Below are positions 46,119-58,432 of a stretch of 64,000 bases of DNA, one piece after another. The notes beneath the pieces were generated by a model. It saw nothing but the letters and a program-made list of their open reading frames with translations. It was not told the DNA's origin and did no database searches. How positions within the stretch are numbered: position 1 is the stretch's first letter; each line of letters begins with the position of its first letter. Origin of the DNA: Vreelandella nigrificans (GTDB lineage Bacteria > Pseudomonadota > Gammaproteobacteria > Pseudomonadales > Halomonadaceae); NCBI RefSeq assembly GCF_002374315.1, contig NZ_NWUX01000004.1, positions 124,001 to 188,000 on the forward strand, given 5' to 3'. Position numbers and translations under genes: made by a program.

Positions 46119-46390
46119 TAGGAAACGGCGTCCTTAAGCGCTTTACCTGGCTTGAACGCAACGTTCTTGCTGGCCGGAATTTGTAACGGCTCGCCGGTTT
46201 GTGGGTTTTTACCGGTGCGTGCGGCACGTGCGCGAACAGTAAAGGTACCAAAACCGATCAGTGAAACATCTTCACCTTTAGCGACACTGTTAGTGATCTC
46301 GTCCAGAATGACGTTGAGGACTTGGCCAGCTTTGTCTTTGGAAAGGTCGGCACCTTCAGCAATAGCAGCGGCGAGTTCAGGTTTGCGCAT
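46118..46390 (-). CDS. hupB: HU family DNA-binding protein
   Basis: A 90-residue histone-like HU protein, a nucleoid-bending dimer. It begins MRKPELAAAIAEGADLSKDKA and carries the conserved GFGTFTVRARAARTGKNPQTG and IPASKNVAFKPGKALKDAV. The ATG at 46390 has GGAGA upstream; the longer open frame to 46435 is not needed. It is coupled to the SCP2-like gene downstream. Its upstream region has a series of 15-bp repeats. Confidence 0.96.
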   Translation of the reverse strand: MRKPELAAAIAEGADLSKDKAGQVLNVILDEITNSVAKGEDVSLIGFGTFTVRARAARTGKNPQTGEPLQIPASKNVAFKPGKALKDAVS

Positions 46391-51808: not shown

Positions 51809-52129
51809 ATGATATCCAAGGAACTACTCAAGAAAGCTGGCATCTTAGGTGTGTCTTTTGGCTTGATGGCTAGCCCATTAGCTTTCGCTGACACTACTGA
51901 ACATTCATCAATTGATCAAAATCAGGATATAACGGCTGACGAGCAGCCAATGGAAACAAATTCACACGGTAACGATAACGCGGATGAGCGTAACTACGAT
52001 GCCGAGGACCTGACAACTGACCACGGTACTAGAGGTACCGATGTTATTGATGACCCTGATTCAACGAACACGAGTGGCGATGCTGAATATACGCCTGAAG
52101 ATGTTATGGAAGAGAATGACGGGTCTTAA
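51809..52129 (+). CDS. Small acidic secreted protein of unknown function
   Basis: A 106-residue protein. A signal peptide (KKAGILGVSFGLMASPLAFA, cleavage after AFA near residue 28) precedes about 75 residues that are rich in Asp, Glu, Asn and Thr and nearly free of hydrophobic residues. It is thus probably a disordered, highly acidic periplasmic or extracellular protein. A GAGGAG ribosome site lies 8 bp before the ATG at 51809. No family is recognised. Acidic surface composition is common in exported proteins of halophiles, and metal or cation binding is possible. Confidence 0.7.
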   Translation: MISKELLKKAGILGVSFGLMASPLAFADTTEHSSIDQNQDITADEQPMETNSHGNDNADERNYDAEDLTTDHGTRGTDVIDDPDSTNTSGDAEYTPEDVMEENDGS

Positions 52130-52204
52130 TTATTGTCGGTTTTATGTGAAATAAGGTTTTTCGATTAGTGAATAACCGCATTTGTTAAATAGTGTTAAAT
52201 TATG

Positions 52205-52441
52205 GTGAGTAACTTTACAGAGTAGCAAATAACTCTTACGCTTAGGAGTGAGCAATATAAGGGGCAAGGATGCCCGCTGCACGGATGCTTACCGATTCAA
52301 AGGATGAATCAAGCGACGTACAATGCGTTAGTCAGGGTTAATTCCATGGTTGGAGTCCCGCAAAAGGAGAGGAAGCTAACGCTAGGTACCGTCCAATGTA
52401 AGAGTTAACCAGACCTCGCTTAGGCGAGGTCTAGTTTTTTC
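52205..52441 (+). ncRNA. Probable CsrB/RsmZ-type regulatory RNA
   Basis: A non-coding stretch with at least seven GGA motifs in about 130 bases, several of them in hairpin loops, ending in a strong intrinsic terminator. Clear examples: GGGCA-AGGA-TGCCC (52262-52275), GATTCA-AAGGA-TGAATC (52294-52310), CTTAC-GCTTAGGA-GTGAG (52235-52252) and a short GCA-CGGA-TGC (52279-52288). Further AAGGA/GAGGA motifs occur at about 52362-52373. This is the design of RNAs (CsrB, RsmX/Y/Z) that titrate the translational regulator CsrA/RsmA, whose target is ANGGA in a loop. The 5' end is not resolved; no obvious GacA site was found. It lies between the acidic protein gene and cysZ. Confidence 0.75.
52411..52441 (+). 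terminator. Intrinsic terminator of the Csr/Rsm-type RNA
   Basis: AGACCTCGC-TTAG-GCGAGGTCT gives a perfect 9-bp stem with a four-base loop, followed after AG by at least six T. It is a textbook rho-independent terminator with no upstream gene other than the RNA and the acidic protein. Confidence 0.93.
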
Positions 52442-52479: not shown

Positions 52480-53208
52480 TTACTTGGTAATAATTCCACG
52501 GTAATGGTTATCCCACATAAAAACGGCTCCAGCGACTGCCCCTGGTATTAAGAATAAATTTGCCAGCGGAATCCAGGTTACTATTGTGACTAACCCCCCA
52601 TAAGTCAAACTTTGCCACCAGCGCCGAGACAATCGTCCGCGCATGTCCTGAAAAGTTATTTTGTTGTTATCCATTGGGTAATCCAAGTAAGTAATGGCCA
52701 TTATCCAGGCAGAAAACAGCGCCCATAGCACTGGCGCAAATAGATTAAGTCCTGGTATCCAACTAATGATGAACAGCACCGCTGCGCGTGGCAGGATATA
52801 GCCTAGTTTTACCAGTTCGCGCCCCACGGCATCGATGGCGGTTTTAGCCAGCCCGCGGTCGTCTAAAGGTTCACGGCCTGTCGCTTGGCGCTCTACTTGG
52901 GCAGCCAGAAAGCCATAGAATGGTGCGGCAATCAGGTGGGTTATCAGGGTAAAGGTAAAAAACACTACCAGCAGTAGGCTAACAAAGAATAGCGGCCAAA
53001 TTAGCCAGGATAGCCACTCAAGCCAGCTGGGTACCATTGCCATAGCGCTGTCTAACCAGCCAGAAAAACGGTTAACTACGATGCCTAGCATGCTGGTATA
53101 AACGACAAGATTGACCAGAATCGGCAGGAAAACATAACGCCGCAGGCCCTTTTGATATACCAGCCGAGTTCCTCGACTTAGCGCGGTAAATGCATCCAAA
53201 GTACTCAC
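52480..53208 (-). CDS. cysZ: Sulfate transporter CysZ-like protein
   Basis: A 242-residue integral membrane protein of the CysZ/EI24 family: GTRLVYQKGLRRYVFLPIL, LITHLIAAPFYGFLAAQVER, LGYILPRAAVLFIISWIPGLN, and AWIMAITYLDYPMDNN with a closing IPLANLFLIPGAVAGAVFMW. In E. coli CysZ imports sulfate for cysteine synthesis. It is preceded by the phoU terminator and appears to be transcribed alone. Confidence 0.9.
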   Translation of the reverse strand: MSTLDAFTALSRGTRLVYQKGLRRYVFLPILVNLVVYTSMLGIVVNRFSGWLDSAMAMVPSWLEWLSWLIWPLFFVSLLLVVFFTFTLITHLIAAPFYGFLAAQVERQATGREPLDDRGLAKTAIDAVGRELVKLGYILPRAAVLFIISWIPGLNLFAPVLWALFSAWIMAITYLDYPMDNNKITFQDMRGRLSRRWWQSLTYGGLVTIVTWIPLANLFLIPGAVAGAVFMWDNHYRGIITK

Positions 53209-57466: not shown

Positions 57467-58432
57467 TTACCACGGTTGCTGGGCATTCGGATCGCTAGGT
57501 GGCAGTGGCACGAAGCCTGATGCGCGGATAATTTGCTGGCCTTCCGCGGACGTAATCAACTCAATAAATGCCTGCTCTGCGGCGGGTAACGACTCCCCCG
57601 GTGGCAGATTAACGTAGAGATAGAGATCTCGGGATAAAGGATACTCGCCGCGCTGAATCGATGACTCAGTAGGCGCTACATCACGGCCTTGTTGGTCGGT
57701 TAGGCGCAGTGCTTTTACCATTGGAGATAGGTGGTTATAGCCTGCATAGCCTATTGCATTAGGAGATTCTCCCACTGCGGCGACTACGGCGGAAGAGCCA
57801 GGATGCTCGCTGATATCCACACGAAACTGACCGCTGCACAGCGCCTGCTGCTGAAATAACCCATGGGTGCCCGACGCCAAGTTACGCCCATGTAGCGCAA
57901 TTTGGCCGTAGGGCCATAGCTGGGCCTCAAGCAATTCCTCCCAGCGCCTAATAGCGTGGTCTGCGCCACAGGTAAGGCCGGTTGAGAAGATCGCATCGAC
58001 CTGTTGGCGGGTTAACGCTTCAAGCGGGTTATGGCGATGCACGACGACGACCAGGGCATCCCGCGCCACGCGAAGCTCAAGGGGAGGGTAGCCATAACGG
58101 TCGACAAACTGTTGGTGCTCACTGTCGGACATTGGGCGTGACATAGGGCCTAGGCGTGTGGTGCCCGCTATTAACGCTGTGGGAGCGCTGGCTGAGCCAC
58201 CAGCTTGAAACTGCAAGCTAATTTCCGGGTGGCGAGCAGTGAGCGCTTCGCCCCAGCGCAATACCAGCCCTGCCATGGTGTCGGATCCAACGGCACCCAG
58301 TGTGCCGCTCGGAAGGGAGGGAGCTGTGGTGGTAGGCTGCCCCCATGCTAGCTGTGCGACCATGAATAGCGTGCCCAGCAGCGCTAGGCGCAGGGGATAT
58401 TTCTTCCTTAGCCATAAACCGTTACCCTTCAA
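57467..58432 (-). CDS. pstS: Phosphate ABC transporter substrate-binding protein PstS
   Basis: A 321-residue PstS-family binding protein with a signal peptide ending AQLAWGQ (near residue 31). Phosphate-binding segments GAVGSDTMAGL, FQAGGSASA and NLASGTHGLFQ are in order. It starts at TTG 58432 with AGAGGA upstream; no closer ATG fits. Separated from pstC by a PHO box. It captures phosphate in the periplasm for PstCAB. Confidence 0.91.
   Translation of the reverse strand: MKGNGLWLRKKYPLRLALLGTLFMVAQLAWGQPTTTAPSLPSGTLGAVGSDTMAGLVLRWGEALTARHPEISLQFQAGGSASAPTALIAGTTRLGPMSRPMSDSEHQQFVDRYGYPPLELRVARDALVVVVHRHNPLEALTRQQVDAIFSTGLTCGADHAIRRWEELLEAQLWPYGQIALHGRNLASGTHGLFQQQALCSGQFRVDISEHPGSSAVVAAVGESPNAIGYAGYNHLSPMVKALRLTDQQGRDVAPTESSIQRGEYPLSRDLYLYVNLPPGESLPAAEQAFIELITSAEGQQIIRASGFVPLPPSDPNAQQPW

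Follow-up and report, generated by a model that had tools for sequence, protein, structure and literature searches.

The CsrA-family proteins are described as binding ANGGAN loops, the repeats of CsrB read CAGGA(U/A/C)G, and the CsrA site obtained by SELEX is RUACARGGAUGU, as given in the accessible part of PMC7652899. RsmW of Pseudomonas aeruginosa contains seven GGAs, of which three are located in outer loops, binds RsmA in vitro and is not activated by GacA, according to the accessible sections of its description (PMC4950607). For the Gac/Csr cascade of Halomonas anticariensis, the sRNA was given as unknown in a table of a 2020 paper, as far as the accessible part of that paper goes (PMC7366521). 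Among the matches listed for the open-access literature, no title concerned an RNA antagonist of CsrA from Halomonas, Vreelandella or Chromohalobacter. Bacteria of the Halomonas/Vreelandella type are of interest for the production of bioplastics and ectoine.

In the window, by which we mean the whole 64-kb stretch of DNA analyzed, positions 52230-52440 of the forward strand correspond to a structured, terminated and apparently non-coding small RNA of Vreelandella (formerly Halomonas), here referred to as the phoR-cysZ RNA. This is its probable extent, with 52205-52229 as upstream sequence; both ends are predictions from conservation, fold and terminator, and the 5' end in particular is an estimate. 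The 237-base stretch 52205-52441 reads as described in a previous sequence-only reading of this DNA, and the neighbors named there (phoBR, an acidic secreted protein, cysZ) were recovered in the gene order phoB, phoR, an ORF that encodes a small acidic secreted protein (51809..52129, forward strand), the RNA, cysZ (52480-53208, reverse strand) and phoU. The link to carbon and phosphate control suggested by that reading has position only as its basis. Its statement that the RNA overlaps no ORF agrees with the ORF list, which contains no entry of at least 60 aa, forward or reverse, in the interval from the acidic-protein ORF to cysZ. The acidic-protein ORF itself was without a Pfam family at E-values up to 1. 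The acidic proteins of the different genomes form a family of short proteins whose N termini resemble signal peptides (e.g., MMSKELLKKAGILGVSFGLMASPLAFA), and their genes are often duplicated along with the RNA.

The predicted RNA opens with the 5' half of a closing stem, TAACTCTTAC (52230..52239), which pairs with the 3' half, GTAAGAGTTA (52398..52407), to give a 10-bp perfect inverted repeat. Within this stem, all on the forward strand, are the hairpins HP1 (GCUU-AGGAGU-GAGC, 52240..52253), a possible CsrA site that forms in relatives and is otherwise partly paired in the window, HP2 (GGGCA-AGGA-UGCCC, 52262..52275), which contains the CsrA-site-like sequence CAAGGAUG, HP3 (GCA-CGGA-UGC, 52279..52288) and HP4 (GAUUC-AAAGGA-UGAAUC, 52294..52310). 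They are followed by a core domain (52315..52393), delimited by covariation, and our covariance model R1 matches 52278-52394 with a score of 115.7 bits. The core consists of an outer helix (52315-52321/52386-52393), an inner helix (52325-52333/52372-52382) and a GGG/CCC helix with a CCA-NGGU-UGG hairpin (52335-52359), all identified by covariation, and of a purine-rich bulge, GCAAAAGGAGAGGAAG (52360..52375), the ends of which overlap the inner helix. This bulge, written GCAAAAGGANAGGAAG, holds two GGAs that are unpaired in the fold. An intrinsic terminator (52411..52440) was identified both by the terminator scan and in the sequence; as the sequence-only reading had claimed, a stem, here of 9 bp (52411-52432), precedes AG and the T-run TTTTTT (AGTTTTTT).

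The fold energy of 52205-52441 was -81.5 kcal/mol, as compared to -60.5 +/- 4.6 kcal/mol for 200 shuffles, none of which was as good (z -4.56). Seven GGA triplets start at positions 52245, 52268, 52283, 52302, 52352, 52366 and 52371, so that the RNA has the multiple GGAs of the Csr/Rsm class, six of them mostly unpaired and two in hairpin loops. In the minimum-energy fold of the window copy, only the triplets at 52268 and 52302 are in hairpin loops; the one at 52352 is paired and the one at 52245 partly so, the two at 52366 and 52371 belong to the bulge and are unpaired, and 52283 is unpaired outside any hairpin in this fold and inside a hairpin in some relatives. The previous claim of repeated GGAs, three or four of them in hairpin loops, thus holds for the repetition and not for the loops, of which there were two among seven in this fold; the GGGCA-AGGA-TGCCC hairpin singled out there was located at 52262-52275 (HP2). 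The comparison with shuffled sequences that the same reading had set as a check was marginal for the triplet itself, with 7 GGAs as compared to 4.2 +/- 1.5 in dinucleotide shuffles and 127 of 2000 shuffles reaching 7, and the longer motifs ANGGATG and CANGGATG were far above chance. The motif ANGGA was found 4 times (1.2 in dinucleotide shuffles; 50/2000 reach 4), ANGGATG 3 times (0.04; 0/2000 reach 3) and CANGGATG twice (0.01; 0/2000 reach 2). Taken by itself, the number of GGAs is weak evidence; it is the ANGGATG-type motifs that exceed the shuffles by far. We also scored 205-nt segments from both strands of the 64 kb (n=2552), of which 3 had at least 6 unpaired GGAs and 28 had at least 2 GGAs in hairpin loops; both features were combined in 2 of the 2552 segments, one overlapping the phoR-cysZ RNA and the other at 57600 on the forward strand.

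We compared the RNA across 79 copies, which are distinct 200-nt sequences from which L069, treated below, and copies too near the end of a locus had been removed. The number of GGAs per copy was 6.82 on average (range 5 to 10), as compared to 4.70 in shuffles, and the mean unpaired probability was 0.60 at the 539 GGA sites, 0.22 at other GG triplets and 0.37 at GGAs in shuffled sequences. Part of the loci were retrieved by a pattern that demanded the core and the two GGAs of the bulge, so the retention of these parts results partly from how copies were selected. The motif CCANGG(U/C)UGG, present in 79/79 copies, belonged to that pattern; GGANNGGAA of the purine bulge was invariant in 40/40 copies of a set that came from blastn. 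With CCANGGUUGG and GGG..CCC, the core is the best conserved part of the RNA and is more even than the peripheral GGA hairpins; part of it is lost in one copy at locus L023. Among the hairpins, a pattern search recovered the GGA of HP4 in 79/79 copies and that of HP3 in 77/79. The HP4 loop takes the forms TTCANGGA (70 copies), TTCANNGGA (8) and CTCAGGGA (1), and the maintenance of the triplet while its register moves is the best sign that selection acts on GGA itself. In HP2, as judged by eye, the stem varies among relatives and the loop is kept. A closing stem common to all copies was rejected: the duplex beat 190 of 200 shuffles in just 21/79 copies, with a median rank of 34 of 200, and is therefore at best lineage-dependent.

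Tandem copies are separated by 0.3-1.2 kb in the loci inspected (e.g., 1448-1660 and 2384-2596 in L014) and by 2.1 kb in genome G196. The two tandem copy types differ at HP1 and HP2, which are variable, and in their upstream blocks. By eye, one type has a GGA-free hairpin instead, with a minimum of 5 GGAs, and the other has a ACAGGAUGU loop on top of changing stems.

Covariation was assessed in 43 of the 51 copies that remained once sequences of more than 90% identity were removed, with shuffles that ignore the relatedness of the sequences. In these 43 distinct sequences, 90.5% of the cells of a 33-pair structure were paired, as compared to 24-44% when the structure was slid. Changes on both sides were observed for 18/33 pairs (10.9 in shuffles; 0/500 reach 18) and in 85 cells (32 in shuffles; 0/500 reach 85), and there were 40 further pair types as compared to 35.7, a number reached in 14/500 shuffles. 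The covarying helices are HP3, HP4, the outer and inner core helices, GGG/CCC and CCA-NGGU-UGG. In HP4, 97% of the cells are paired and 3/6 pairs changed on both sides; in HP3, which is the least certain helix of the conserved structure, 79% of the cells are paired and 3/4 pairs changed on both sides. As to the conservation and covariance that the sequence-only reading had proposed as a check on the hairpins, 18/33 pairs of the whole structure changed on both sides and 69/82 genomes of the genus match R1; we regard conservation as the decisive evidence.

By blastn, the RNA was found in 30/58 genomes, all of them among the 37 genomes of the genus of the window. The core pattern was present in 22/151 genomes of the family, in 1/24 genera, and over genome contigs it gave 49 stretches, of which 48 were in Halomonas, Vreelandella or Halovibrio. 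The 49th, in a Candidatus Gracilibacteria MAG (L069), lacks the T-run of a terminator and has surroundings unlike those of the RNA; it was therefore taken as a chance match and rejected. Viral contigs gave no hit. Stricter filters applied whenever R1 was run on more than 40 genomes, and R1 E-values are rough. R1 was built from members of the genus, so its matches there are partly by construction; it matched 69/82 genus genomes, 21 of these 69 carrying two copies, the maximum per genome, and a match was absent from 13/82 under the stricter filters of that search. In wider samples, R1 matched 44/201 genomes of the family (1/24 genera) and 2/369 genomes of the class (1/271 genera), without a match in any other genus sampled. 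The possibility that other genera have a counterpart at the corresponding locus was considered and rejected: cysZ was matched in 57/61 genomes and gave 30 loci, of which 25 were outside the genus. Of these 25 loci, 14 also contained phoR, with a phoR-cysZ gap of 42-278 nt for 13 of them and of 675 nt for the remaining one; for the other 11, phoR was not seen in the flank examined. The RNA family is genus-restricted, found so far only in Vreelandella (formerly Halomonas) among the genera sampled.

Another RNA of the same genome has features of RsmZ. It is located between eno and fdxA (282246-282640 of contig C22 in genome G000; loci L145 and L147), is GGA-rich and has a strong terminator. In Pseudomonas, too, rsmZ adjoins fdxA. 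A GacA box with 1 mismatch is present upstream, at 282246, next to a degenerate second copy with 3 mismatches. The RNA has 10 GGAs in a 205-nt stretch, with CAAGGATG- and CAGGATG-type sites, and matched no Csr-type family in Rfam. By blastn it was found in 34/37 genomes of the genus, including 6 of the 7 that lack a blastn match to the phoR-cysZ RNA. Both RNAs are GGA-rich and terminated, but the rsmZ-like RNA differs in having a GacA box, a weaker fold (z -1.6) and no match to R1. A scan of the genome for GacA boxes with at most 1 mismatch gave 15 sites, of which 9 were looked at, as compared to 9 sites for a reversed-pattern control, and single sites are therefore weak on their own. One perfect palindrome (L139, 70357 of contig C9) is located between divergent hcp and tssB genes (Pfam T6SS_HCP and T6SS_VipA), where it could provide direct GacA control of the type VI secretion system. 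Two others, at 217 of contig C8 (L138) and 82185 of contig C13 (L140), are each located 5' of an ORF start at a contig end, and the two starts are nearly identical; these ORFs presumably resemble VgrG.

NCBIfam model NF007018, which we take to be the UvrY/GacA model, has one match over the cut-off in the genome. CsrA, with a match over the cut-off, is encoded by one gene, and its 62-aa sequence differs at 2 positions from a Halomonas hydrothermalis sequence printed in PMC12889724. With CsrA encoded in the genome, an intergenic position, an intrinsic terminator and no ORF of at least 60 aa, the phoR-cysZ RNA shares traits of the Csr/Rsm class, and CAAGGAUG in HP2 agrees with both the CAGGA(U/A/C)G repeats of CsrB and the SELEX site RUACARGGAUGU, as these are given in the accessible part of PMC7652899. 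Since the CsrA docking motif is presented repeatedly, the RNA probably soaks up CsrA. From these sequence features we infer its transcription, CsrA binding, titration and input signal, and we consider it likely that it is a terminated sRNA of Vreelandella, either stand-alone or derived from an mRNA 3' end, that binds and titrates CsrA as a second antagonist beside the rsmZ-like RNA. The loops of HP1-HP4 would offer ANGGA-type sites and the bulge of the covarying core two more; CsrA dimers would bridge GGA sites and so be withdrawn from mRNAs, and the RNA would be under an input different from that of the rsmZ-like RNA with its GacA box. The earlier suggestion of a sponge RNA is in keeping with a conserved RNA, with GGA sites selected in loops and bulge and with a single CsrA gene; its assignment to the CsrB/RsmZ family is not supported.

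That assignment, by which the RNA would be an ordinary family member, an rsmZ orthologue driven by GacA, is hardly tenable and already contradicted. No Rfam family matched in the window at gathering score, and PrrB_RsmZ and CsrB gave none in the whole genome at E-values up to 10, which says little because these models also miss the rsmZ-like RNA of the same genome. In favor, RsmY matched with 17.0 bits (cut-off 57; E 0.049 for the stretch), with the surest alignment at the terminator, and with 12.7 bits in one relative, but none was listed in a second relative and we gave this sub-threshold match little weight. The GacA box, TGTAAG-N6-CTTACA, is absent at the RNA, the nearest sites in the window with at most 3 mismatches being at 46288 and 60195, and within about 325 nt upstream of the 79 copies the best match was no better than in shuffles. 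Furthermore, an rsmZ-like RNA with such a box is present elsewhere, between eno and fdxA, and is missed by R1; because of it, the phoR-cysZ RNA is an additional and probably GacA-independent RNA. Quite unlikely, too, is a cis element, in which the RNA would be the 3'-terminal part of the mRNA for the acidic protein (or for phoBR), and its structure and CsrA sites would act on that mRNA and not in trans. The acidic-protein gene is directly 5' of the RNA in 61/79 copies (phoR in 10/79, other genes in 8/79), and in the interval that separates the acidic ORF from the RNA, the scan detected neither a terminator nor a promoter-like site. Yet, the 10 copies that follow phoR do so at 175-303 nt with the acidic gene absent, and a 3'-end origin is compatible with a role in trans, as in RsmW according to the accessible part of PMC4950607. 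A TAACA..TTTRCA sequence upstream of 24/79 copies (e.g., L005, L009 and L014), as compared to 0.0 in mononucleotide shuffles, also hints at control of the RNA's own. The other copy type has a TTAGATATC-like sequence upstream of the RNA, and both sequences are possible regulator sites. A sigma-70 promoter was considered and rejected, as the best score per copy was not above shuffles (7.70 versus 7.79); in the window, none was detected at 52130-52230 and the scan flagged one inside the RNA, at 52296-52324. The scans are compatible with either an own promoter or an mRNA 3' end.

The core bears on two further explanations. A structured sRNA with a main partner other than CsrA, in which the core would bind another protein or a ligand or base-pair with mRNAs, and the GGAs would be structural or part of that site, is rather unlikely. 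The more even conservation of the core than of the peripheral GGA hairpins, and the 79/79 copies with a CCANGG(U/C)UGG motif that was also in the retrieval pattern, are as expected from it, but not the GGA of HP4, which is kept while its neighbors and register change, nor the preference of GGAs for unpaired positions and the match of the loops to the CsrA site. Against a plain sponge, the best conserved core is not built of GGA sites, and a sponge would not need such a core. An unlikely extension would be a bifunctional sponge, in which the core (CCA-NGGU-UGG hairpin, GGG/CCC and two-GGA bulge) would be a domain of its own for sensing a second protein or a ligand; the core would then gate CsrA capture or RNA turnover, and the genus would gain access to the Csr network independently of GacA.

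Titration of CsrA being the preferred reading, the RNA family is real and genus-restricted, has a probable CsrA-antagonist function as judged from its motifs, and was unmatched in the Rfam searches run; Csr-type RNAs of this genome escape the Rfam models that we tried. For a cascade in which the sRNA of a relative was given as unknown, one related genome offers two candidates, one rsmZ-like and preceded by a GacA box, the other genus-specific and lacking such a box. If confirmed, this would show a lineage adding a CsrA antagonist under new control. With CsrB/CsrC and RsmY/RsmZ/RsmX, the phoR-cysZ RNA has in common the repeated GGAs in hairpin loops or single strands, the intrinsic terminator and the lack of an ORF of at least 60 aa. 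It differs from them by the lack of an Rfam match at cut-off and of a GacA box and by its conserved non-GGA core, and its 7 GGAs compare to 22 in CsrB, as stated in the accessible part of PMC7652899. The closest functional analogue, as judged from its description, would be RsmW of P. aeruginosa: as far as the accessible part of PMC4950607 goes, both RNAs have 7 GGAs with several in loops, both directly follow a small gene from which no terminator separates them, and RsmW is not GacA-activated just as the phoR-cysZ RNA is without a GacA box, the latter being distinguished by its covarying, genus-wide core.
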